A model generated the notes under the pieces. The model searched no databases. It had not been told where the DNA came from and worked only from the letters and a program-made list of their open reading frames with translations. DNA of 27,888 nt from a virus, in the IMG/VR virus record IMGVR_UViG_3300037189_001779, positions 1 to 27,888 of that record; one strand, 5' to 3'. The translations under genes were made by a program, and so were the position numbers. Below are positions 11,285-26,589 of this stretch, piece after piece (position 1 is the first letter of the stretch; the number at the start of each line of letters is the position of its first letter).

Positions 11285-11611
11285 GTGATAACAGTTACAG
11301 AAAAAGCAGCTATCAAAATCAAAAAACATTTAGAAAAAAGAGGTAAGGGTATTGGTATCCTTGTAGGTGTTAATACTACTGGATGCAGTGGATTAGCATA
11401 TAAACTAGAATATGTTGATGACTTACCAAATAAGGGTGAGTACATGACATTCAATAGCAATGATATTATCATAGTAGTCAGTCAAAAAGACCTCCCCTAC
11501 ATTGATGGTATGAAAATGGAATGGAAGCGTGAAGGATTAAATGAGGGATTTGACTTTATTAATCCAAATGAAACAGCACGTTGCGGTTGCGGAGAAAGTT
11601 TCACCGTTTAA
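11285..11611 (+). CDS. A-type iron-sulfur cluster carrier, IscA/HesB-like
   Basis: This 108-residue protein has the full A-type carrier layout and length (about 107-120 aa). The first conserved cysteine is in TTGCSGLAYKLEY (C34) and the C-terminal pair is in ARCGCGESFTV (C100 and C102). These three cysteines bind the cluster in IscA, SufA and ErpA, which pass Fe-S clusters to apoproteins. Which of the three it most resembles cannot be decided here. The GTG start at 11285 follows the previous stop by 2 nt and lacks a clear ribosome-binding site, implying coupling. It closes a late operon of virion-type genes, which is an odd place for a metabolic gene. Confidence 0.9.
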   Translation: MITVTEKAAIKIKKHLEKRGKGIGILVGVNTTGCSGLAYKLEYVDDLPNKGEYMTFNSNDIIIVVSQKDLPYIDGMKMEWKREGLNEGFDFINPNETARCGCGESFTV

Positions 11612-12392: not shown

Positions 12393-15300
12393 ATGGCAAT
12401 AATACAACTTTCCAAAATTCAACACCGTACAGGGGCTAACGTAGATTTGCCCCAACTAGCTGAGGGCGAATTAGGTTTCGCCACAGACGAGCGTAGACTT
12501 TACATAGGTAATGACGCAAATCTGTTTCCCCCTTTAGGGACTAGTACTACTACTCAGACTGAGATACTCACAGAGGTTTCTACTCTGAATTGGTCAAGAC
12601 TGGGTGGTTCTGCAAATACAACATTAAACATAGAGGCCCCTGTAGAAGATGGGCAGTTAATTGTTGCTAATTCAAATACATGGACTAATGCAGGTGGTAC
12701 TTCAGCTTTGCCTATCAATTTAGGTAATATTCAAAATCTTAATATCGGTGGTGGTTTAAATGGATATGTACTTACAACTGACGGCTCAGGTAATCTAAGC
12801 TGGCAGGGTAGCGGTGTTGTGACATATGCTGTTGCTAATGTTTCACAAGCTAATCCTGCAGTCGTAACAACTACTGAAGATAATGCAATCTTAACTGGAT
12901 TGCAAGTTACAATCTTTGGTGTTGGTGGTATGACCCAGCTAAAGACAGCCGGTGCAAGTGGCACAAACAAATTCTATGTAGTAAAACAATCTAACAGTAC
13001 ATTCACCCTGTACTCGGACAGTACATTATTATCAGCAGTTAACAGTTCGGCATTTACTGCAGCAGTTCCTAATACAGGTAATGCAGTCACATCATTCTAT
13101 GAAAACGGCACAGGTAATCCAGGTGGTGGAAATAGAAATATTCAATTCAATGATGGTTCTGGATTATTTGGTGGTATTGGTACTTTTACATTTGATAAAA
13201 CTACTTCTAATTTAAGTTTAACCGGTAATGCAAACATAACATATGATATTGCTGCAAATAATTTCATAGGTAAGTTTACAGGACCAATAGGAAACACAAC
13301 AGCCAATACAGGTAACTTTACGACTATCAATGCTGCTTCTACTATTAGCACTTCAGGAAATGTTTCTGCAGGTGGTAATGTAGTAGTCACTGGAAATATA
13401 AGCACAGGTAGTAATTTAACAACAGCAGGCAATTTAAGTGTAACAGGTAATACTAAGTTAACAGGTAAATTGTCAATGGGTGGTAATATAGTAGGCAATT
13501 TAGTACCAGATGCTGACATCACTTATAATTTAGGTAGTCCAACAAGACGTTGGAAAGATTTATACATATCAAGTAACTCACTCGTTATTGGTAATGGTAC
13601 ATTATCTACTAGTCCTACTGGTGACTTTAATTTTTCAAACTCAAACATAACAACATTAAATGCTAATTTAGGTAATCTAGCAACTGCTAATTTCTTAGGC
13701 GGCACACTAATTGCATCATCAAGTTCACAACCTAACATATCAACTGTTGGTAATCTAACAAGTTTGAATGTTGCTGGTATAAGTAATTTAGGTCCAGTAA
13801 ACAATGTGTTTATTGGCAACTCTACTGCAAATTATGTATTAACTGCTACTGATGCAAATGGAACCATGCGTTGGTTACCAACCCAGTATATTGAAACTCC
13901 TGCTAAAGGCTCAAATCAAAGCGTACAGTTTAATGTAGGTAATGTAATTTCTGGCAGTGCTAATTTCTTATTTGATAAAGATTTTAATAAATTAACAGTT
14001 CCTAACCTTGTTGTCGGAACAACAATTAACGGCAATGCCACTATTAGTGTTACTGGTAATATAACTGGTAATGCCATTAACGCAACTACACTTAATGTTA
14101 GTGGTGCTGTAATCGCATCAAACACAGTTAGTGCTGCAGGCAATCTTACATCAAACGGTATACTTACTGTTAATAACAATGCAGCTATCACTGGTAATTT
14201 AAGTTTAACTGGAACCATTACTGCTAATCTTACAAATGCAGGCAATGTAAGTGTATCAGGTAATACAACTACTTCACGTTTATCTGTAGTATCTAATGTA
14301 GTTGCTAACGGTAATATTACTGGTGGTAATATATTAACATTGGGTAGTATATCTGCTGGTGGTAATGTAGATGCAAATAATCTAAATGCAGCAGGCAATG
14401 TCATCATTACTGGACAAGCAAACGCAGTGCGTTTTGTAGCTAGTGCAGAAATTAAAGCTGGTCAATATATTCAAGCTGCTGGTAAAGCATATATCGGTGA
14501 AGATGTATTAGCAAATGGTAATGTTTCTGGTGCTAATATTTTAACTTTAGGTAATGTTTCAGCAGGTGGAAACTTAACTATAGCAGCAAATGCACAAATC
14601 AACGGTAATGCTACTATTACTGGCACTATTGCTGGTGGTAATATTACTACTCTTGGCTTAATCAGTGCAAGAGGTAATATCAATGGTGCTAATATTACTG
14701 CTAATGGATTTATCACCACAACAGGTGATGTAACAGCAAATGGTGCAATATCAGCAAATGGTAATATTACTAGTTTAGGAACAATAACAGCTAACGCATT
14801 GAACGTTGGTAATGTATCAACAACTGGTAATTTAACAGTCAACAATCTTGCTGTAGCAAACTTTGTAAGTTCATCATTACTACCAAATGCAGATATTTCT
14901 CTTGCATTGGGTGGCCCAACTAAACGTTGGTCAACATTATATGTTGGCAACACAATCAATATTGGTGATAAGACTATTGTTTCAGATGCAAATGGTATTG
15001 GATTTGGTGCTGCATTATTCAATCAAGCTAATGCAAATATTGCTAACTTAAGAACAGCATATGCAAATCTACCAGATACCGGTAATATCAAGATACCAGG
15101 TGGTACTTTAGGTGCAATTCTTAAAACAGACGGTAATGGTAATATAAGTTGGGGAGCACCTAGTAGCTTTGTATCTGGTGCAGCCGGGTCAAACACACAA
15201 GTTCAGTTTAACGATGCTAATATAATGGCTGGTAGTGCGAACTTTGTATTCAACAAAACAAGTAACACATTAACAGTAGATAAGATCATTGCAAATGGTA

Positions 15301-18300
15301 GTGGTCTAACAGGAATGAATGGTGCAAATGTAACAGGCACAGTAAGTTCTGCTAGTGTAGCAGGAACAGTATCAGTAAATGCACAACCAAATATTAATAG
15401 TGTTGGTAATCTAACAGGTCTAGTGGTAGGTAATTTAGGTAATGTTGATTTCAGTAATACAACTGCAGTAACTTTAAACAGTAATAGTCTACGAGTTCCA
15501 AATGGTTGGACTCCTGGAATGTCAATCATTGCTGTTAGTCCAACCGCTAATAGTAATGCAGACGCAGGAAAATTAAGTTGGGGTTATTCATCTCTATTAC
15601 AAAATGGCAATAGTAATGTAGTTGTTGATACTGCTGCAAATATTCGTTTTACTGCCAACGGTGTAGTTAACGTAGTTACTATCGCAAACACTGGATTATT
15701 CACTTCAAATCTAACAGTTAATGCAATTGCTAATTTAGGCTCAGTTAGTAATGTAAAAATTACTGGTGGTGGACCAAATCAAATATTAAGAACAGATGGT
15801 AACGGTGTGTTAAGTTGGGTAGCTCCTGCAAGTACTAGTGCATTAGCAAATGCAAATAGTAACATAACAGTTGAAGCCGCAAATATAAATCTATCAGCAA
15901 ATGGCACACCTAACGTATTACAAGTAACTGCAACCGGTGTTAATATATCTAATGAAACAATATCTGGTACTTCTAATATCGGTACATTAAATATAAATGC
16001 TATTGCTAATCTTGGTGCAGTTGCTAATATAAGAATTGGAGGTAGTAATGTAGGATGGTTACTGCAATCAAATGGTGCTGGTGGAGTTGTTTGGACACCG
16101 CCAGCAAGTACAAGTGGCTTAACAAATGGTAACAGTAGCGTTTCTGTTGATCAAAACGGTAATATAAGAATAACTGCAAACACTGCACCTAATGTAGTTG
16201 TCATTGCAAATACAGGGCTTTTCACAAGTAATATTTCAGCGACAGGTACATTAACAACAAATGGTATCGCTGTACTAAACAACGGTAACATAACACTACC
16301 GGGTACTGCTAGTACTGCAGGTAAAATATATTGGCCAGGCACTGCTGCTTGCTCAGCACCACAACTTACTACATATTCAGGTGGTACACGATTAGTATTA
16401 CAAGACTCTATTGCTACTAGTGGTTCTGCAGGATACACAATGGGTATTGAATCTGGTAATATGTGGTTTGGTACTGATGTAGTTGCAGCAGGATTTAAAT
16501 GGTATGGTGGCATAACTCAAATTGCGACATTAAGTAACGCAACTGGATTTAGTACAGTTGGCAATGTTGCCGGTATTAACATTAATACAACAGGTAATGT
16601 AAGCGCAACAGGTAATGCTAATATTGGTAATAATGTAAACACTGTTAATGTTAATGCAACCGGTAGTATAATAGCAGCTAATATCACTGCTAATACAGTC
16701 ATAAGCACAACTGGTAATATTAACTCAGGCAATGAGAATGTAACCGGTAATGTACAAGCAGGTAACTTAAGAACAACAGGTAATGTAAGCGCAACAGGTA
16801 ACATCACAACTGCAAACTTCTTTGTAGGTAATGGTTATTACTTGACAGGTGTATTAAGAGAACCAACAGCATTAATTGCTAATGGTACTTTAAGTAATGT
16901 CAGCATTCCAGCTGCTAATGGCTCCATCTCAGTAGTAGCAAATAACGTAAGTGTTATGACTATTACTAGTGTTGGTGCAAATATCAGTGGTAATGCAAGT
17001 ATTTCAGGTAATGCTAACGTAGGTAACTTAGGAACTGCGGGTAATGTTACAGCAAATTACTTTATTGGTAATGGTGCATTATTAACAGGCATTGCAACAA
17101 GCAATCAATTGTTTAATGGAAATAGTAACGTAACTATTGATTCAAATGCTAACGTAAGAATTACTGCAAATGGATCAGCAAACATCGTAAGTTACATTGG
17201 TAATGGTGTATATCCTGCAAATGCTAACATAGGAGCAATTCAGCCGCAAAATACTTATTATCGTGTTGGTAATGTATATGTATCATCTGGTGGCGATTAC
17301 GGACATTTCTCTACTCATGCATGGTACACTGGCGGTATGTGGATGGGTGATGGTGCAGTTGGCGGATTATTCCAAATAGCAGGACCTACATTTAATTGGT
17401 TCAAAGGTTCTGCATGTACAAGTGTCACATACACTAGTTTGATGTCACTTGATGCTAATGGAAATTTATTCGCAAATGGTACTATATCATCAGTAAGCAA
17501 TATAACCGGTGTTAATATAATTGGTACTAATATAAGTGCCACAGCTAATGTAACTGGTGGTAATATCATAACTGCTGGTGCAGTAAGTGCTACTGGTGTA
17601 ATAAGTACTGCTGGTAATATTGTAAGTAACAGCTATCACTTCTTAAATTCATATGCTGGCGCCACTGAAGGTGGTCAGATTGTTATGTCGTTTGCTGGTG
17701 GTAACGCTTATGCTAATGCAGTAGCTTCAACATGGAACATAGATGTTGGTCCTGCAAATGACTTCCGTATATTCAATTATAACTCGGGTGGTGCGGTATC
17801 AATTCCATTCATAATTCGTCAATCAAATAATCAAGCAGATTTCACTGGAAATATTGCTACTGGTGCTAATGTTAATGCAGGCAATGTTAATACTACCGCT
17901 GCAGTATCAGCAGGTGGTAATATTACTACAACACAGTTCTTAAATGCTGGTAGTATGAGTGTTTCTGGCACTATTAATGGTGGCGCAAATGCTAACATAG
18001 CAGGTAATTTAAATCTAACAGGTAATGCAAATGTAATAGGTAAGATAAATGTATCCAATAGCATTAGTATGGCTAATGGCTCTCTGAACATAATTAATTG
18101 GGGTACTGCTGGTTATGCACCGCCTAGTATTGTAGCAGCTTATGGAAATGGCACAAAAATTGTATTGTTTGACAGTAAAACATCAACTGCTACTGCTCTT
18201 GGCTACACAATGGGTATTGATACAAGTACATTCTACTTTACCAGTGATGTAAACTTTAAATGGTATACTAATGGCTCACTAACACCAGTAGCAACAATGA

Positions 18301-21300
18301 CTCCTACAGGATTCAGTGTCACTGGCACAGTTAATGCATCCAACTTTGTTGGTAACGGATCTGGTCTTACTGGTATTTCAGCATCAAATGCACTTAGTTT
18401 GGTAAACGGTTCAAGTAATGTTGTAGTTGACGTAAATGGTGCAATAAGAATTGGTGCAATAGGTGTGCCTAATGTGTTGACCATCACAAACACAGGCACA
18501 GTAGTGACAGGTACAGAAAGCGTAACTGGTGCTATTACTGCTAATGGTGCAATTACAACGGCAACAACTTTAACTGCAGCTAATTTGAGTATTACTGGAA
18601 ATGTAGCATTTACTGCTGCAAACGTAAGTTTAGGATCTAATACTGCTGTTAGAATTACTGGTGGGGGTCCTAATCAATTCTTAAAAACAGATGGAAACGG
18701 TAATTTAAGTTGGGTTTCTGCAGGTGGTACTGCAAACGTTGCAGGTGCACCAACTCAAGTACAGTTTAACACTGGCGGTGCAATGGATGCTAGTGCTAAC
18801 TTTACATTTGATAAAACAACTAATACATTAGTAGTCACTAATGCTACAAATTCAGGTAACTTAAGCGTAGGCGGTAATGCAACTGTAGCAGCTAACTTAA
18901 GTGTTACTACAGGCAATATCAGTGCTAGTGGTAACGTTAGCTTAATTGGCAATAACGTAACTGGTAAACTAGTGTTTAACAATAATGGTGTTGCAGCTCC
19001 GATATTAAATGGTGTAAGTAATGGTACTAGAACAATTTTCTATAATTCAGCAGGAGCTCAAGCTACTAACTTTGCAATGGGTATAGATAGTAGCACATTA
19101 TGGTACAGTGTTCCGGATACAGCTAGTTTCCACAGATGGTACGGTGGAACAACTCAGCTTGCATATCTAACTGGAATTGGATTCTCTGTAACAGGTAACA
19201 TATTTGCTAGTGCTAATATTAGTACTATTGGCAATATTCTTGCTGCAGGTTTACTCAGTGTTACTGGAACAATTTCAAGTACTGGTGCTATTGCTACCCC
19301 AAGTACAATCAGTGCTACAGGTAATATTAATACTACAGCTACACTAAATGCAGCAGCATTGTCTGTAACTGGAGCAGCAATTTACGGTGGTGTAATTAAC
19401 ACAACAAGCACAATGAGTGCTACTGGTACAGTAACGGCAGGTGGATTTATCACTGCAGGTACAATTAGTGCTAATGGTACTATTACATCAAATACTGCAA
19501 TTAACACTACAGGTACTATAAGTGCTACTGGTAACATTACTACTGCTGGTTACATACAAGCTGCAGGTCTTGCTTCTAGCGGTAACATGGCAATCCCAGC
19601 AGGTAATTCATTATTGATGGGAACAAATGCTGGCACATCAGCTAAGATAATATGGGATGCAGCTGGGACAGGAGCACCAACATATAGTGCATTTAGTCCA
19701 GGTACAAAATTAGTATTGTATCCTGCAACTGCTGCGCCATACACACCAAGTGCAAGTGAGGTTGGATATGCAATGGGTATTGAAGCCTACTCAATATGGT
19801 ATAGTACAAGCAATTCTACAGTTGGTTTCCATAGATGGTATGCAGGTAATACACAAATTGCAAACTTAAACTATCAATCATTTACTGTAGCAGGAAATTT
19901 AAGTGCAGTTGGTAATGTTTATTCAAATAACGAAAACGTAACAAGTAATGTACAAGCAGGTAACTTAAGAACAACAGGTGTAGTATCTGCAGCAAGTACA
20001 ATAACCGGTGGCAATTTAGTAACAGGAGGCACAATAAGTTCATATGGTATTGCAACATTAGGTAATGTTGTTGTACCAACAGGCGGTACTATATCTGCAA
20101 TCGGCAATATCATTGGTGGTAATATAGTAGCAAATGCAACTGTCACTGGTGTAACATTAAGTGCTAGTGGTAACGTAACAGGCTTTAACTTAACAACTGG
20201 CGGTGTAGTGAGTGCTGCTAGTAACGTAACCGGTGGTAATATCTTAACTGGTGGTTTAATAAGTGCTGCAGGTAGTGTTACAGGTATAAGTCTTGTTGGT
20301 AATCTATACACAGTTCGTAACGGTGGTATTTACTGGCCTAGTGATACTAGTGGTGACGTTGCAACTATCACTTATCTAAGATCAGGCGCTGATACTGGTA
20401 CCCTAGAACTTTCTGTACAAAATGATACAGACGATATTATTAGATTAAATGCAAGTGGTGGTACATCAGTTGTTGGTAATTTAACAGTTGGTGCTAACAT
20501 AACAACAACTGCAAATGCTAACGTAGGTAATTTAAATGCAACAAGTAATGTACAAGCAGGTAACTTAAGAACAACTGGATTAATCAGTGCTACTGGTAAT
20601 GTAACAGCTAGTAATTTTATCACAACTGGCACGATAACTTTAGGTGGTGTCATCAGTGCTACTGGTACCCCAGCTGCTATCGCTGCTACTGGTACAATTA
20701 ACACTTTAAGTACAATTAGTGCTACTGGCACAATTACTGGTGGTAATATTGTAACCGCAGGCGCAGTCAGTGCAACAGGTATAATCAGTACTACAGCTAA
20801 TATTACTACTGCAGCTAATATTAGTGCTACTGCAGGAATATTTGCTAGTACAATTAGTGCTGTTGGTAATATCAACAGTACAGGTAACATTATAACTAAT
20901 GGTACAATATGTACTATAGGATTGATAGTAAGTGCAGGTGCAAGTGCTAACTTTGCCTCTCCGATATATGCAACATCATTAATTAGTACTACTGCAACAG
21001 TTACTAGTGCTGTTTTAAGTGCTACAGGAAATGTAAATGCTGCTAATGTAATATCTACTGGTAATGTAAATGCTGGTACTAACATAAGTGCTACTGGTAA
21101 TATTACTTCTGCAGCAAACATAAGTACTAGTGGTAATATTATTGCTGCTGGCACAATGAGTTCTACTGGATTAGCGACACATGGTAGTTTAAGTGTCGTT
21201 GGTAGTTCTACTCATACTGGTGCAATCAATACAACTAATGCTATTAGTGCTGTTGGTACGGTTACTGCAGGTGGATTCAGTACTACAGGAAATACTATTA

Positions 21301-21839
21301 CTGGTAATTTAAGCGTTACTGGTAACGTAATTGGTACATTAACTGTTCCTGGTACTGCAAATATTGGTACTGCAAATGTAACTACTTTAAATGTATCTGG
21401 TGCTGCTAATGTAAGTCCAAGTTCAGTTGTAAGAGATCCTGCTAATGCAGCAATAAATATTCCAGTTGGATATCGTATAAATCCACTAATTCCCGTAACA
21501 ATGGCATCTGGAACTATTGCCAGTGTTTTATACGATAATAACGCTACACAAAAAATATTTTATGTCACTGGTGCAACCGTAGCTACTGGTGTAATTAATT
21601 GGGAAGGCAGCGGATCTTTCGAACGTTTTGCTCTTGGTTCAGTTATAACTATTATCAATGATAGTTCAGGAACAGTACAAGCTTCTGGCTCCTATGCTGG
21701 ATGTAATTTTAGACGAGCGCAAACCGGAGCTACAACAAATACTATTAATGTTGGACCTAATGGTTATGCAGTATTTACTAAGATTGTATCTGTTGGACCA
21801 GGCGGATATCCATTATGGTTCGTGTCAGGTAATTTCTAA
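12393..21839 (+). CDS. giant modular tail-fibre-like protein, 3148 aa
   Basis: The gene takes up a third of the window without a frameshift. Residues 1-42 (MAIIQLSKIQHRTGANVDLP at the start, then GELGFATDERRLYIGND) are the fibre N-terminal module related to the major-tropism-determinant family, which anchors fibres to the virion. The body is rich in N, G, T, S and A, with hundreds of short strands such as VSATGNI, as in beta-helical or beta-solenoid fibres. Larger modules recur: QVQFN...FDK (near residues 247, 506, 931 and 2118), LGxPTxRW (376, 836), TDGNGxxSW (128, 911, 1133, 2099), NGNSNV...ITAN (1070, 1244, 1574), NGxxLTG (968, 1479, 1560, 1986) and a GYxMGI...WY module of about 80 aa. The last 140 residues (from about 3010) are non-repetitive and may be the receptor-binding tip. 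I see no enzymatic or chaperone domain. Confidence 0.85.
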   Translation: MAIIQLSKIQHRTGANVDLPQLAEGELGFATDERRLYIGNDANLFPPLGTSTTTQTEILTEVSTLNWSRLGGSANTTLNIEAPVEDGQLIVANSNTWTNAGGTSALPINLGNIQNLNIGGGLNGYVLTTDGSGNLSWQGSGVVTYAVANVSQANPAVVTTTEDNAILTGLQVTIFGVGGMTQLKTAGASGTNKFYVVKQSNSTFTLYSDSTLLSAVNSSAFTAAVPNTGNAVTSFYENGTGNPGGGNRNIQFNDGSGLFGGIGTFTFDKTTSNLSLTGNANITYDIAANNFIGKFTGPIGNTTANTGNFTTINAASTISTSGNVSAGGNVVVTGNISTGSNLTTAGNLSVTGNTKLTGKLSMGGNIVGNLVPDADITYNLGSPTRRWKDLYISSNSLVIGNGTLSTSPTGDFNFSNSNITTLNANLGNLATANFLGGTLIASSSSQPNISTVGNLTSLNVAGISNLGPVNNVFIGNSTANYVLTATDANGTMRWLPTQYIETPAKGSNQSVQFNVGNVISGSANFLFDKDFNKLTVPNLVVGTTINGNATISVTGNITGNAINATTLNVSGAVIASNTVSAAGNLTSNGILTVNNNAAITGNLSLTGTITANLTNAGNVSVSGNTTTSRLSVVSNVVANGNITGGNILTLGSISAGGNVDANNLNAAGNVIITGQANAVRFVASAEIKAGQYIQAAGKAYIGEDVLANGNVSGANILTLGNVSAGGNLTIAANAQINGNATITGTIAGGNITTLGLISARGNINGANITANGFITTTGDVTANGAISANGNITSLGTITANALNVGNVSTTGNLTVNNLAVANFVSSSLLPNADISLALGGPTKRWSTLYVGNTINIGDKTIVSDANGIGFGAALFNQANANIANLRTAYANLPDTGNIKIPGGTLGAILKTDGNGNISWGAPSSFVSGAAGSNTQVQFNDANIMAGSANFVFNKTSNTLTVDKIIANGSGLTGMNGANVTGTVSSASVAGTVSVNAQPNINSVGNLTGLVVGNLGNVDFSNTTAVTLNSNSLRVPNGWTPGMSIIAVSPTANSNADAGKLSWGYSSLLQNGNSNVVVDTAANIRFTANGVVNVVTIANTGLFTSNLTVNAIANLGSVSNVKITGGGPNQILRTDGNGVLSWVAPASTSALANANSNITVEAANINLSANGTPNVLQVTATGVNISNETISGTSNIGTLNINAIANLGAVANIRIGGSNVGWLLQSNGAGGVVWTPPASTSGLTNGNSSVSVDQNGNIRITANTAPNVVVIANTGLFTSNISATGTLTTNGIAVLNNGNITLPGTASTAGKIYWPGTAACSAPQLTTYSGGTRLVLQDSIATSGSAGYTMGIESGNMWFGTDVVAAGFKWYGGITQIATLSNATGFSTVGNVAGININTTGNVSATGNANIGNNVNTVNVNATGSIIAANITANTVISTTGNINSGNENVTGNVQAGNLRTTGNVSATGNITTANFFVGNGYYLTGVLREPTALIANGTLSNVSIPAANGSISVVANNVSVMTITSVGANISGNASISGNANVGNLGTAGNVTANYFIGNGALLTGIATSNQLFNGNSNVTIDSNANVRITANGSANIVSYIGNGVYPANANIGAIQPQNTYYRVGNVYVSSGGDYGHFSTHAWYTGGMWMGDGAVGGLFQIAGPTFNWFKGSACTSVTYTSLMSLDANGNLFANGTISSVSNITGVNIIGTNISATANVTGGNIITAGAVSATGVISTAGNIVSNSYHFLNSYAGATEGGQIVMSFAGGNAYANAVASTWNIDVGPANDFRIFNYNSGGAVSIPFIIRQSNNQADFTGNIATGANVNAGNVNTTAAVSAGGNITTTQFLNAGSMSVSGTINGGANANIAGNLNLTGNANVIGKINVSNSISMANGSLNIINWGTAGYAPPSIVAAYGNGTKIVLFDSKTSTATALGYTMGIDTSTFYFTSDVNFKWYTNGSLTPVATMTPTGFSVTGTVNASNFVGNGSGLTGISASNALSLVNGSSNVVVDVNGAIRIGAIGVPNVLTITNTGTVVTGTESVTGAITANGAITTATTLTAANLSITGNVAFTAANVSLGSNTAVRITGGGPNQFLKTDGNGNLSWVSAGGTANVAGAPTQVQFNTGGAMDASANFTFDKTTNTLVVTNATNSGNLSVGGNATVAANLSVTTGNISASGNVSLIGNNVTGKLVFNNNGVAAPILNGVSNGTRTIFYNSAGAQATNFAMGIDSSTLWYSVPDTASFHRWYGGTTQLAYLTGIGFSVTGNIFASANISTIGNILAAGLLSVTGTISSTGAIATPSTISATGNINTTATLNAAALSVTGAAIYGGVINTTSTMSATGTVTAGGFITAGTISANGTITSNTAINTTGTISATGNITTAGYIQAAGLASSGNMAIPAGNSLLMGTNAGTSAKIIWDAAGTGAPTYSAFSPGTKLVLYPATAAPYTPSASEVGYAMGIEAYSIWYSTSNSTVGFHRWYAGNTQIANLNYQSFTVAGNLSAVGNVYSNNENVTSNVQAGNLRTTGVVSAASTITGGNLVTGGTISSYGIATLGNVVVPTGGTISAIGNIIGGNIVANATVTGVTLSASGNVTGFNLTTGGVVSAASNVTGGNILTGGLISAAGSVTGISLVGNLYTVRNGGIYWPSDTSGDVATITYLRSGADTGTLELSVQNDTDDIIRLNASGGTSVVGNLTVGANITTTANANVGNLNATSNVQAGNLRTTGLISATGNVTASNFITTGTITLGGVISATGTPAAIAATGTINTLSTISATGTITGGNIVTAGAVSATGIISTTANITTAANISATAGIFASTISAVGNINSTGNIITNGTICTIGLIVSAGASANFASPIYATSLISTTATVTSAVLSATGNVNAANVISTGNVNAGTNISATGNITSAANISTSGNIIAAGTMSSTGLATHGSLSVVGSSTHTGAINTTNAISAVGTVTAGGFSTTGNTITGNLSVTGNVIGTLTVPGTANIGTANVTTLNVSGAANVSPSSVVRDPANAAINIPVGYRINPLIPVTMASGTIASVLYDNNATQKIFYVTGATVATGVINWEGSGSFERFALGSVITIINDSSGTVQASGSYAGCNFRRAQTGATTNTINVGPNGYAVFTKIVSVGPGGYPLWFVSGNF
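16319..19903 (+). repeat. dispersed GYxMGI/WY fibre modules (four clear copies, one divergent)
   Basis: Copies lie at about 16319-16570, 18080-18330, 18963-19203 and 19639-19900, with a divergent relative at 17256-17480. Each encodes about 80 residues with the order G-T-K/R-x-V-L, then G-Y-x-M-G-I-(D/E), then a W-Y/F-F pair, then F-(K/H)-(R)-W-Y, ending in a G-F-S-V-x-G-N/T-type strand. Examples are GYTMGIESGNMWFG and FHRWYGGTTQ. They break up the otherwise monotonous solenoid and may form protruding globular knobs. Boundaries are approximate. Confidence 0.7.
16747..16780 (+). repeat. 34-bp near-identical direct repeat, copy 1
   Basis: Encodes NVQAGNLRTTG within the fibre gene. The DNA is identical to the copy at 19945-19978 and differs at one base near its 3' end from the copy at 20545-20578. 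All three copies are in the same reading frame. Confidence 0.85.
19945..19978 (+). repeat. 34-bp near-identical direct repeat, copy 2
   Basis: Identical to copy 1 over 34 bp. The codons just before it also match in sense (NENVT in both), so the duplicated unit is longer at protein level than at DNA level. Confidence 0.85.
20545..20578 (+). repeat. 34-bp near-identical direct repeat, copy 3
   Basis: Matches copies 1 and 2 except ACAACTGG in place of ACAACAGG. It is followed by a stretch of short SATGTI-type strands with the most uniform DNA of the gene. Confidence 0.82.
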
Positions 21840-23116: not shown

Positions 23117-23144
23117 AAAAAAGCCGCACTATGCGGCTTTTTTT
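23117..23144. terminator. bidirectional Rho-independent terminator
   Basis: AAAAAAGCCGC (23117-23127), the loop ACTAT and GCGGCTTTTTTT (23133-23144) form a GC-rich stem with As before and Ts after, so it works on both strands. It ends the 21964 gene on the plus strand and the neck/NUDIX operon on the minus strand. The last codons and the stop of the NUDIX gene lie inside it. Confidence 0.9.
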
Positions 23145-23551
23145 ATAAGTGTTTCTAGTTTATCTTTTACTACGTCAAAGTTAATTGTGTTAAACAATCC
23201 AGGATGTAATGGCTTTGGATAGTTATGTACATCAACCCAGCAATAACCTATGTGTTCATCATTTAATACTGGTAAGAATTCATTTTCTACACTACAGAAG
23301 AATGTATGATATGTAAACGTATTGTTTACAAACTTTTGAATTGGTATTAACTTAGCGTCTTTAGGAAAATAGTCTATTTCTTCAATACATTCACGTTCAA
23401 GACCTTGTATTAATGTCTCTCCGTTTTCTATTTTCCCACCAGGTATGCCCCAAAATGTAGTACTCTTGTTGTCATTGCGTAATAAGAACAAGAATCTGTT
23501 TGTAGATGCAGAATGATAAAATATTCCAGCAGATATGTTTTGCGCTTTCAT
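23129..23551 (-). CDS. NUDIX hydrolase, 140 aa
   Basis: The NUDIX box spans residues 39-60: G39-x5-E45-x7-R53-E54-C55-I56-E57-E58, which supplies the metal-binding glutamates. The glycine that normally follows (R-E-U-x-E-E-x-G-U) is D60 here. The preceding FWGIPGGK segment and the overall length match a single-domain NUDIX hydrolase of the MutT/ADP-ribose type. Substrates could be oxidised or damaged nucleotides, NAD-like dinucleotides or capped RNA; sequence does not decide. It is the last gene of the minus-strand gp14-gp15 operon, 18 nt after gp15, with a weak ribosome-binding site. Phage NUDIX enzymes may clear toxic nucleotides or alter RNA ends. Confidence 0.88.
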   Translation of the reverse strand: MKAQNISAGIFYHSASTNRFLFLLRNDNKSTTFWGIPGGKIENGETLIQGLERECIEEIDYFPKDAKLIPIQKFVNNTFTYHTFFCSVENEFLPVLNDEHIGYCWVDVHNYPKPLHPGLFNTINFDVVKDKLETLIKKAA

Positions 23552-23569: not shown

Positions 23570-24943
23570 TTAAATCACTACGCTAAAATCTCCCGCTTCA
23601 TACCAACCTTCCCATGATTTCATCCATGTACCAGTATAACGATACTGAACACCAGTAGTTAAATTAGTTACGTATTGAGTGCTAGTTAAGTTAGTACTAT
23701 CAAAGCTAACAAACCATGCACCTGACATAGAATCATATTCAATAATATCATTTGCTTTTGCTTTTAATGTTCCCCATGCACTAGTAGGATCATATGAGTA
23801 TGTACTATCAATACTTTCAACTATTAAGTATCGTTGACCATTTGCTGGCAATGGTAAATTGTTACCTGGACTCTTAGCAAGTGGATTAACTACACTATCA
23901 ACTGCTGGTAACGTGTTTTGTGGTAATGTATCCGGGTCAATGTTAAAGATTAATAATCTATCGTCATTGGGATTGAATGCAATCGTACCTACAATCTCTG
24001 TTTCCATATATGGATTTTGTAACCATATTTGACTGATGCCAGGTCTTACTTTTCCATACACGTTTAAAAATGCAGACCAATGCACATTAGTGTCAGGATT
24101 GGTTGGTAATTCTAAACTTTCATTGTTAGGAGTAAACGCAGTTCCGTCTGGTAACACTTGTAATGAGTTACCTAATAATAATAACTTATATCCATAAGGA
24201 GTAATCTTTTGTCTTGTTCCTAATAGCATGTCATCATCTTGCATATCTGTAAGAGCGTTCCCCTGAAATATACTTGCGATAATCTTGTAAATAACACCAA
24301 GCTTTTTGACTTTAGCACTGCTACTAATCCATATAGGCATGTAGAATGTCCATGTCATAACATCAATAGGGTTTCCTGATCCGATTGGTATTGTACGTGA
24401 ACTAAATGTAAGTTTATCTTGATACACAACACTTAATGAAGTCCAGTCAATGAAGTTATCAGTACTTTGAATTTCCATTGCAGGATTGAATAACACACCT
24501 AATTGTTCTAATAACTCTAATTTCTGATTATAGTTTGTTGTCCAAAAATCAACTGTGATACGCAATGTATACGGAACAGGCATGATACGTTCAACTGTGA
24601 ATGCATCGCCTTGTGTGGTTTCAAATTGTTGAGTGTCTACATTAAATGTTCTACGTCTTACTGCTAGATTATCTACAAAATATGGTTCTTGTGTTCTGCT
24701 TTGATCATATTCTAAACCTGAGATATAATACGTAATCATAGGTGCGCTAGGTAAACTACTAGGACTGTTATTGCCTATGACTGTAGATACCATTCTGCTT
24801 TGATCACCATACTGAATAGGTACACGCACTAATATATCATTGCCCGCTGGATCTTTGCCTTTGGTTACATACCAATTGCTGAAAATTCTAGCGAACTGAA
24901 CCAAAAATCTACGTATTTGGTTATCATAAAAAAACTTTGCCAT
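23570..24943 (-). CDS. 15: tail completion / sheath stabiliser protein, gp15-like
   Basis: The N-terminus (MAKFFYDNQIRRFLVQFARI, then FSNWYV) and the following VRVPIQYGDQSRM match the T4 gp15 pattern: FYNSSFRRY, LFSNIQI, IRVPITYASKEH. Later, MPVPYTLRITVDFWTTNYNQ and LEQLGVLFNPAMEIQ correspond to the IYELSIFTRYEDD and VEQILPYFQPHF segments of gp15. Gp15 caps the tail tube and sheath and joins the tail to the head. At 457 aa it is much longer than T4 gp15 (272 aa); the extra C-terminal part (about 250-457) includes a separate beta-rich domain ending in SWEGWYEAGDFSVVI. AAGGA 5 nt before the ATG serves as ribosome-binding site. The gene order after the gp14-like gene agrees with T4. Confidence 0.78.
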   Translation of the reverse strand: MAKFFYDNQIRRFLVQFARIFSNWYVTKGKDPAGNDILVRVPIQYGDQSRMVSTVIGNNSPSSLPSAPMITYYISGLEYDQSRTQEPYFVDNLAVRRRTFNVDTQQFETTQGDAFTVERIMPVPYTLRITVDFWTTNYNQKLELLEQLGVLFNPAMEIQSTDNFIDWTSLSVVYQDKLTFSSRTIPIGSGNPIDVMTWTFYMPIWISSSAKVKKLGVIYKIIASIFQGNALTDMQDDDMLLGTRQKITPYGYKLLLLGNSLQVLPDGTAFTPNNESLELPTNPDTNVHWSAFLNVYGKVRPGISQIWLQNPYMETEIVGTIAFNPNDDRLLIFNIDPDTLPQNTLPAVDSVVNPLAKSPGNNLPLPANGQRYLIVESIDSTYSYDPTSAWGTLKAKANDIIEYDSMSGAWFVSFDSTNLTSTQYVTNLTTGVQYRYTGTWMKSWEGWYEAGDFSVVI

Positions 24944-24951
24944 TTTATTCC

Positions 24952-26589
24952 TTAATCAGGTGTAATTCTTAAAATACTTGATAGTGGTTGTTGTTGCGGT
25001 ATATCACCATTATTTGTTTGTGTAATATTGTTATTATTAATAAAGCCTGACAATTGAGATTGATTAGAACTATCAAAGCCGAAGCCTGTTCTTACGTTCT
25101 CACTTATCTTGACCCATAAGCTACCGTCCCATCTAAACAGTTGTTGCGGTAAATAATCAATGCGCAATACATATTGACCTAATGTTGGATTAGGCGGGAA
25201 TGTAATTGCTGATGTAACTGGCTCACCATTAGGTGCTTGACCAGTACCTACTAAGTATCCATCTAAATAACCGAAACTTTGTGGACTACTTCTTACAATA
25301 AATCTAAATCTAGGATCACAGTCTGCTCTGTAATCCATATCAGGATTAATCAATGTCTTATCAAAGTCAGGTGTACTAGGATCAGCATCACTGAATGCGT
25401 ATGTATTATCTGAGGTACCGAATGGAACTGTAACAGGACCAAATGCTTTTACTGCAAGAACTAATGTTGGTTCAATTGATCCTGAACCTGTGTCTGTTCT
25501 TTCTAACTCCAACTCAGCAACTTCCATGTTCAATTGAATGAAAGCTTTGATATCTTCTAAATTCAAATCTCTACTTTCTAACTCTGCTAGTGCTGCTGCA
25601 GTGATACGTAATATAGGACTAGGATTAAAGCCTGCTGGTTGTATAACTTCTAATGTACCAGTTACTGGGGCTCCGTTATAAACAACTACACTTACAGGGA
25701 GTGCAGGTTTGTCACCTTCAGTAGGTAATACATATAATTGACTTCTATCGTAACCTGTTAGAGGTACAAGGCGTGCAGCTTCAGCTATTGCAGCATCATT
25801 GATTTGTATATTCTTATTGTATCTACTGATAATGTCTTTTAAGCTATCTCCCACTTCTAATGTCCAATACTCAGGGTCAGTACAAGGGATGCCTGCCGGT
25901 ACATCTTTGATAGGTGTATAAATCTTATCACCGTATGTCACTGTATATCCAGGAACATATGATTTTGTTTTGTCCCAATCACCTAAGTAGTTATCCTTAT
26001 TGATTGGTTGCTCTAATATATTACTGAATTCTTGACTATCAACTAATGGCTCACACTTGATTCTCCATAGATGCGGATACCATGTTTGACTGAACCCTTC
26101 ACTAGCATAGTTTGAATCAGTTATTTGATAATATCTACGTAATGAAGTTGGTAATTTGTCGTTTAGTGGATGATAGTCGGTCAAGTGGGGCAACTCTAAT
26201 ACGTCCCCAACCATTAACTTACGACCAATCAAGTCTATCATGTTGTTATAATGAACAGTAATGAATATAATATCGTTGTTTAGGAACAATCCAAATTGAC
26301 TTAAATCAAAATCTAAATTCTGTACGTTATAATGACCGCGGATTCTGTAGATATCAGGAGCGTATTTTCTGTCACGATTTTCTAAGAATAGTAAATCTTG
26401 TATATTTAATGGGCTAAGTTCAGTATATTGTGGTTGTGTCAAATCAGTGCTAGGACCTTGATCCTGAGGCCCCAAATACTTGTGAATATACATGTCGGTT
26501 CCACCCACAGTAAACATCTCATAGATTGTTCTATCCATGAATCTATAATCGTTCGTTTTTTCGGGGCGGTATAGTGAAAGTCTTGGCAT
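24952..26589 (-). CDS. 14: neck protein, gp14-like, with carbohydrate-binding-like insert
   Basis: Residues 1-200 follow the T4 gp14 pattern: a YEMFTVGGTDMYIHKYLGP segment near ECYYVPRE, then DLLFLENRDRKY, an FGLFLNNDIIFITV strand matching FGMQVQDEVTLSI, VGDVLELP matching EGDLIYFP, and LWRIKCEP. Gp14 is a neck ring protein at the head-tail junction. The protein is 545 aa, about twice T4 gp14. Residues about 204-243 (W205, Y211, G214, YTVTYGDKIYTP, W242) look like a small chitin-binding CBM5/12-type module, and the rest of the C-terminal half is unfamiliar. It is the first gene of a minus-strand late operon and ends 8 nt before the gp15 start. Confidence 0.68.
   Translation of the reverse strand: MPRLSLYRPEKTNDYRFMDRTIYEMFTVGGTDMYIHKYLGPQDQGPSTDLTQPQYTELSPLNIQDLLFLENRDRKYAPDIYRIRGHYNVQNLDFDLSQFGLFLNNDIIFITVHYNNMIDLIGRKLMVGDVLELPHLTDYHPLNDKLPTSLRRYYQITDSNYASEGFSQTWYPHLWRIKCEPLVDSQEFSNILEQPINKDNYLGDWDKTKSYVPGYTVTYGDKIYTPIKDVPAGIPCTDPEYWTLEVGDSLKDIISRYNKNIQINDAAIAEAARLVPLTGYDRSQLYVLPTEGDKPALPVSVVVYNGAPVTGTLEVIQPAGFNPSPILRITAAALAELESRDLNLEDIKAFIQLNMEVAELELERTDTGSGSIEPTLVLAVKAFGPVTVPFGTSDNTYAFSDADPSTPDFDKTLINPDMDYRADCDPRFRFIVRSSPQSFGYLDGYLVGTGQAPNGEPVTSAITFPPNPTLGQYVLRIDYLPQQLFRWDGSLWVKISENVRTGFGFDSSNQSQLSGFINNNNITQTNNGDIPQQQPLSSILRITPD

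Follow-up and report, generated by a model that had tools for sequence, protein, structure and literature searches.

The virus record IMGVR_UViG_3300037189_001779 of IMG/VR, whose 27,888 bases were analysed whole and are hereafter called the window, encodes a giant tail fibre in one open reading frame (ORF), and this fibre holds four copies of a homologous module whose mutual likeness is far beyond chance. We read these modules, with moderate confidence, as knob-like trimeric beta-prism domains placed at intervals in the distal shaft, where the knobs would lock the register of the three chains and touch the cell surface. That the module is distinct from the shaft and a unit of its own is supported by its separate sequence family, by the beta-meander predicted for it, with a predicted local distance difference test (pLDDT) score of 88-95 over the core, and by its position next to a Peptidase_S74 (S74) domain in four relatives.

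Four homologous modules in one fibre

12393..21839, plus strand: fibre ORF P0001, 3148 amino acids (aa), a single open frame with an N-terminal Mtd_N domain and a G/N/T/A/S-rich shaft of period about 6, beside tail sheath stabiliser and virion structural genes
16311..16562, plus strand: module copy M1, aa 1307-1390; family profile 72.9 bits, leave-one-out 65.4 bits
18069..18326, plus strand: module copy M4, aa 1893-1978; family profile 57.3 bits, leave-one-out 56.6 bits
18951..19196, plus strand: module copy M5, aa 2187-2268; family profile 87.7 bits, leave-one-out 70.5 bits; modelled with AlphaFold2
19626..19895, plus strand: module copy M6, aa 2412-2501; family profile 76.5 bits, leave-one-out 67.2 bits

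The copies, whose boundaries are those of the family profile, are 82-90 aa long. In the leave-one-out scores, obtained by scoring each omitted copy with a profile made from the other three, the controls reached at best 13.2-16.5 bits among 1000 shuffles per copy and 5.0-9.2 bits among 1000 random shaft segments. M4, M5 and M6 are 36-41% identical to M1, and the order GT(K/R)xVL, GYxMGI, W(Y/F) and FKWY or FHRWY is kept in all four copies with single departures (GTRTIF and NFAMGI in M5, YF in M4), in agreement with the order GTKxVL, GYxMGI, W(Y/F) and F(K/H)xWY given in a preliminary description of this sequence. The range assigned there to the modules (16319-19903) covers the first to the last copy, and its remark that they lie hundreds of residues apart is borne out by start-to-start spacings of 586, 294 and 225 residues; a further 645 residues lie C-terminal of the last copy. 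The modules also differ from the surrounding shaft, as had been proposed: the four copies have 47 F, W or Y among 342 residues, whereas the remainder of aa 301-3000 has 98 among 2358 (Fisher p 1.2e-10), and asparagine, a shaft letter, stands at 6.4% vs 14.5%.

Regarding the origin of the copies, the tree evidence for a recent duplication pulls both ways. In a tree of 55 members, the four window copies were grouped in 0 of 200 bootstrap trees, M1 and M4 forming a pair (97/81), and a tree holding all four together was not rejected (p 0.283), two window rows lying on long branches.

The module family and its S74 context

Starting from a five-row core alignment, the family search yielded 56 IMG/VR loci from 95 pattern matches and three Chitinophaga loci from 23, and the 61 loci fetched comprise these 56 contigs, two Synechococcus phages and the three Chitinophaga genomes. 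The total with the window is 74 domains, spread over 64 ORFs and representing 55 distinct sequences, some loci being near-duplicates. Among phage records, tblastn with module queries matched 2 of 50,697 (S-SCSM2R and B23, the two phage records with the module). The window has the highest copy number (four), followed by L041-L045, L059 and L066 with two per ORF, while the other ORFs have one. In a sample of 195 genomes from the family of Chitinophaga japonensis, six have a match at E <= 0.001, which is strong in two cases.

The family consensus reads ylngatgNrIdfn.nGvaaPtfttrSaGTKivLyp...vdyAlGIes.tlW.svp...FkWYggTTq.a.L, in which P, G and G are invariant and N, W, W, Y and L are kept in at least 90% of 52 alignment rows from very different sources. 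None of these 52 members matched NCBIfam, Pfam gave only chance-level matches with one or two members each (best E 0.0095), and neither scan returned a lectin or carbohydrate-binding family. In PHROGs no match was convincing (three families hit a single member each, the best, 'baseplate wedge subunit', at E 0.00086), the PDB chain sequences held no relative (one chance hit per search), and M6 alone as a query in genome contigs found nothing. Literature searches, none of them by motif letters, returned no paper whose listing describes this module. As judged from these searches, the sequence family appears uncurated, its kind being already known.

When 13 module-bearing relatives were scanned whole with Pfam, Peptidase_S74 was found in 8. 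In four of them (L028, L049 in its first ORF, L065 and L067), only 6-15 residues separate the end of the module from Peptidase_S74, and in L014, L062, L027 and L066 it is positioned further inside. A module in an L028-type position would end up at or near the fibre end after S74 cleavage, and this variety of placements speaks for a trimeric fibre domain that can serve either as part of the tip or within the shaft. The Chitinophaga genes (L065, L066 and L067) combine the module with S74, and their N-terminal start resembles a signal peptide by eye; G002 has six matches. Bacterial secreted trimeric fibres may share modules with phage fibres.

Predicted fold and known counterparts

M5 was modelled with AlphaFold2 as a single chain on the 52-row alignment. 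The model is a six-strand beta-meander (strands at model residues 46-50, 60-65, 68-72, 80-84, 87-92 and 97-99) with a mean pLDDT of 79.9, rising to 88-95 in blocks of residues 61-110. The preliminary description had named fold prediction among the checks on its proposal and ordinary shaft as the adverse outcome; it was this confident meander that was obtained. Since the turns between strands are two residues long, hairpins and an antiparallel order are probable in the model. With about 82 aa and six strands, predicted M5 has the dimensions of the five- or six-stranded sheet of some 80 residues per chain by which knobs are recognized.

Among solved structures, the best VIA fold matches are weak: the Mu tail fibre 5yvq (Z 5.6, rmsd 2.5, 89 aligned) and the R2 pyocin spike 4s37 (Z 5.5). 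Most of the best matches are trimeric fibre or spike proteins. The trimeric phage or pyocin proteins among the weak matches are these two, the HylP hyaluronate lyases, lambda gpJ and the K1F endosialidase. Among predicted viral proteins (BFVD), three matches pass E 0.001 with 31-37% identity and are likely members of the module family. One is an S74 protein, another an uncharacterised phage protein, and the third (A0A1X9VNV1), from Mimivirus AB-566-O17, has E 3.8e-4 and 32% identity to the module model.

In size, strand number, repetition in the shaft and S74 adjacency, the module fits the knob-like beta-prism kind known from the R2 pyocin, T4 gp34 and T5 pb1. Knob1 and Knob2 of the R1/R2 pyocins are trimeric, about 83 aa long and built on a sheet of five or six antiparallel strands (PMC6116203 section 3.5), but they are duplicated in tandem, whereas the window copies lie far apart, are unrelated to them in sequence and would be trimeric by analogy. 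In T4 gp34, the proximal long tail fibre, P (beta-prism) domains punctuate the triple beta-helix shaft of a T4-like fibre (PMC5537660); the window fibre differs in having four homologous copies in one protein, with no sequence match to PDB chains. The td2 domain of T5 pb1 (78 residues, aa 1161-1238) has five antiparallel strands and precedes the chaperone cleavage site Ser1264 (PMC4690869), which recalls the four relatives with the module just before S74; the window fibre, in contrast, has its modules inside the shaft and no S74 match. Finally, the mosaic adhesive trimer fibres of Bdellovibrio are described in PMC10769870 as bacterial S74 fibres built on trimeric beta-prisms, a combination reminiscent of the Chitinophaga members. 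Their binding domains sit at the tip, and the likeness is one of description.

By analogy with these systems, the trimer would be built from three antiparallel sheets of five or six strands, one per chain, that close into a triangular prism with the conserved W, WY and hydrophobic residues packed inward and loops of variable length pointing outward. Each knob would lock the three chains in register inside the low-complexity shaft and would present three sets of loops touching the cell surface, so that four knobs could give weak multivalent contact ahead of binding by the tip. In this scheme the meander is predicted, and the trimer, its packing and the surface contact are what we infer.

Replacement of the module-bearing part in a sister phage

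Relatives of the window were collected through its tail sheath stabiliser (best 80 of 599 matches), including 13 IMG/VR loci (L074-L086) at 83-85% identity. The GYxMGI module was found neither in these 80 loci nor in L154 (0 of 81, many of them too short to span the fibre gene), and in 0 of 14 whole records. Nine of the 13 close loci carry instead 3 to 11 copies of a different module of about 65 aa, the FRQY module (consensus ..DyFri.vGGtg.d.GfVsfdtgdnGnEpIyfRQyt...r.lTLL), for which no homology to the GYxMGI module was detectable by hhalign (probability 0.1). The fibre of L030-L032 holds one module of each type. In L076, L080, L081, L083, L085, L086 and others, and in L155, the FRQY modules occur mostly as pairs about 25-45 residues apart, with about 240-285 residues between pairs.

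The first 141 aa of the window fibre are 57-75% identical across five related records. The sister fibre of L076 measures 4925 aa when its contig is read over two overlapping stretches, and it has the same anchor (74% identity over 141 aa). Window aa 1-648 (48%) and 711-1297 (35%) align with it; past aa ~1297 only short, non-collinear shaft matches are found, and L076 carries 11 FRQY modules, mostly paired, at aa 2782-4786. The first window module thus starts about ten residues after the point where collinear homology stops. The module-bearing distal part is replaced in this sister phage, which suggests interchangeable knob cassettes, and both module types may be swappable host-contact parts. 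In more distant orthologues, whose N-termini are 57-60% identical, the protein is 761-1052 aa long and gave no match to the module profiles.

Weighing the possible roles

Several observations weigh against trimeric surface-contacting knobs. S74 was not matched in 5 of the 13 relatives scanned, nor in the window fibre. A significant fold match is absent: Foldseek gave 0 of 46 hits at E 0.001 among solved chains, no VIA score reached Z >= 8, and the lower range obtained may, according to the tool, reflect a common arrangement. Moreover, scores almost as high (Z 4.8 and 4.5) go to dystrophin-complex chains of the beta/gamma/delta-sarcoglycan type. The listed fold hits include neither T5 pb1 nor T4 gp34 nor the R2 fibre, which excludes nothing. 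The first third of the module is modelled without strands (pLDDT 58-74 in the first 40 residues); this part might be ordered only within the trimer. Surface contact and sugar binding are putative. Weighing all of this, we regard weak multivalent surface contact together with trimer registration as the most likely function, with a purely structural role next.

In such a structural role, which we consider a genuine if less probable alternative, the knobs would keep the trimer in register, stiffen the very long shaft or act as hinges in it, touching nothing and leaving recognition to the C-terminal tip. It would suit the conservation of the same residues across the 52 rows, secreted-looking Chitinophaga proteins included, which is what one expects of a core more than of a specific binding site, as well as the long stretch beyond the last copy; knob-like domains are also considered likely to be important for trimer folding (PMC6116203 section 3.5). 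However, the exchange of the module part for an unrelated module in the sister phage, with the N-terminal half kept, is more easily explained by contact with varying hosts, and the module-free orthologues indicate that the module is not needed for a fibre as such.

That the modules are lectin-like glycan-binding sites, their conserved W and Y stacking on sugars, seems to us rather improbable, and such sites are putative. Precedents exist: the K1F endosialidase has a knob-like beta-prism to which a fragment of sialic acid binds (PMC6116203 section 3.5), T5 pb1 recognises oligo-mannose (PMC4690869), and in one trimeric fibre tip of Bdellovibrio two tyrosines hold GlcNAc between them (PMC10769870). 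Together with the aromatic enrichment and the replacement of the module-bearing part, they make glycan binding plausible. Against it, the scans of the 52 members matched no sugar-binding family, and the aromatic residues are near-invariant over unrelated hosts, unlike host-specific sites. Because of this near-invariance, W, WY, P and G are better seen as structural core, and the invariant aromatics may be core residues. The possible 'glycan-binding knobs' of the preliminary description are retained as separate modules, and the sugar binding finds no counterpart among matched families or folds.

It is very unlikely that the segments are ordinary shaft, triple beta-helix that varies in sequence but has no separate fold: although triple-stranded beta-helix proteins (HylP hyaluronate lyases, R2 spike) are among the weak fold matches and beta-prism and beta-helix grade smoothly into one another (PMC6116203 section 3.5), the composition, the family of about 85 aa moving as a unit and the confident meander with loops speak against it.

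Other features of the fibre and the window

12417..12512, plus strand: N-terminal Mtd_N domain, aa 9-40; PF18454, E 1.4e-7, 31.8 bits vs a cut-off of 26.3
17241..17492, plus strand: M2, aromatic-rich island, aa ~1617-1700, the densest, with 15 F/W/Y in 80 and WY and NWF motifs
17628..17873, plus strand: M3, aromatic-rich island, aa ~1746-1827, with 11 F/W/Y in 80

The shaft has six aromatic islands, the six densest of aa 301-3000, and four of them, the module copies, are of one sequence family. M2 is the segment that fits the 'divergent fifth copy' of the preliminary description, whose four clear copies stand; its homology to them is not supported. Its score is 3.0 bits against the profile of four copies, a level attained by 118 of 1000 shuffles, and 2.3 bits against the 55-member profile (103 of 1000), and hhalign profile-profile comparison with the family gave a probability of 5.0. 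M3, absent from that description's list, is not a homologue by profile either (531 and 836 of 1000 shuffles as good), and M7 (aa ~2640-2700) was not counted as a copy, 25 of 1000 shuffles doing as well with the four-copy profile and 131 of 1000 with the family profile. M2 and M3 had no relative in the phage collection; in IMG/VR, M2 had none and M3 had one (L154, 44% identity). AlphaFold2 without an alignment gave a pLDDT of 45.4 for M2/M3, too poor for judging the fold. The C-terminal 159 aa of the fibre found nothing in IMG/VR.

Beyond Mtd_N, the window fibre has no other Pfam (at E <= 0.1) or PHROGs match. The remainder is low-complexity shaft; in the four segments of it examined, hydrophobic residues and glycine show autocorrelation with a period of about 6. 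Three kinds of stretches recur in it, QVQFN...SANFxFDK (four places), LKTDGNGxLSW (three places by exact motif) and NGNSNVxVDxNGNIRITANG (several times); recurring stretches lie approximately at 14925-15200, 15500-15900, 17100-17300 and 18390-18550, the first two kinds also outside these.

The window is a fragment of a T4-like phage, an assignment that rests on two minus-strand genes, one at 23570-24943 for a tail sheath stabiliser (PF16724, phrog_11196 and phrog_227) and one at 24952-26589 for a virion structural protein (phrog_11591). By eye, we take a 108-aa ORF (11285-11611, plus strand) to resemble an A-type iron-sulphur carrier protein and a 140-aa ORF (23129-23551, minus strand) to resemble a Nudix hydrolase.

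Concluding remarks

These analyses define an unnamed module family of 55 distinct sequences common to phage fibres, Chitinophaga S74 proteins and, judging by one match in fold and sequence, a giant virus. Tentatively, and from one fully compared fibre pair and partial loci, the giant fibres of this T4-like clade could combine a conserved N-terminal anchor with a distal shaft whose knobs come from one among several unrelated families (GYxMGI here, FRQY in the sisters), whole knob sets being exchanged as cassettes that change how the side of the fibre, and not only its tip, meets the host. This extension we hold to be doubtful; fragment shuffling in phage host-interaction proteins is reportedly a known theme. 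If it is true, much of the host contact of long fibres would lie along the shaft, in parts annotated as 'hypothetical' or 'large exoprotein', and the family profile makes this idea of shaft contact testable.

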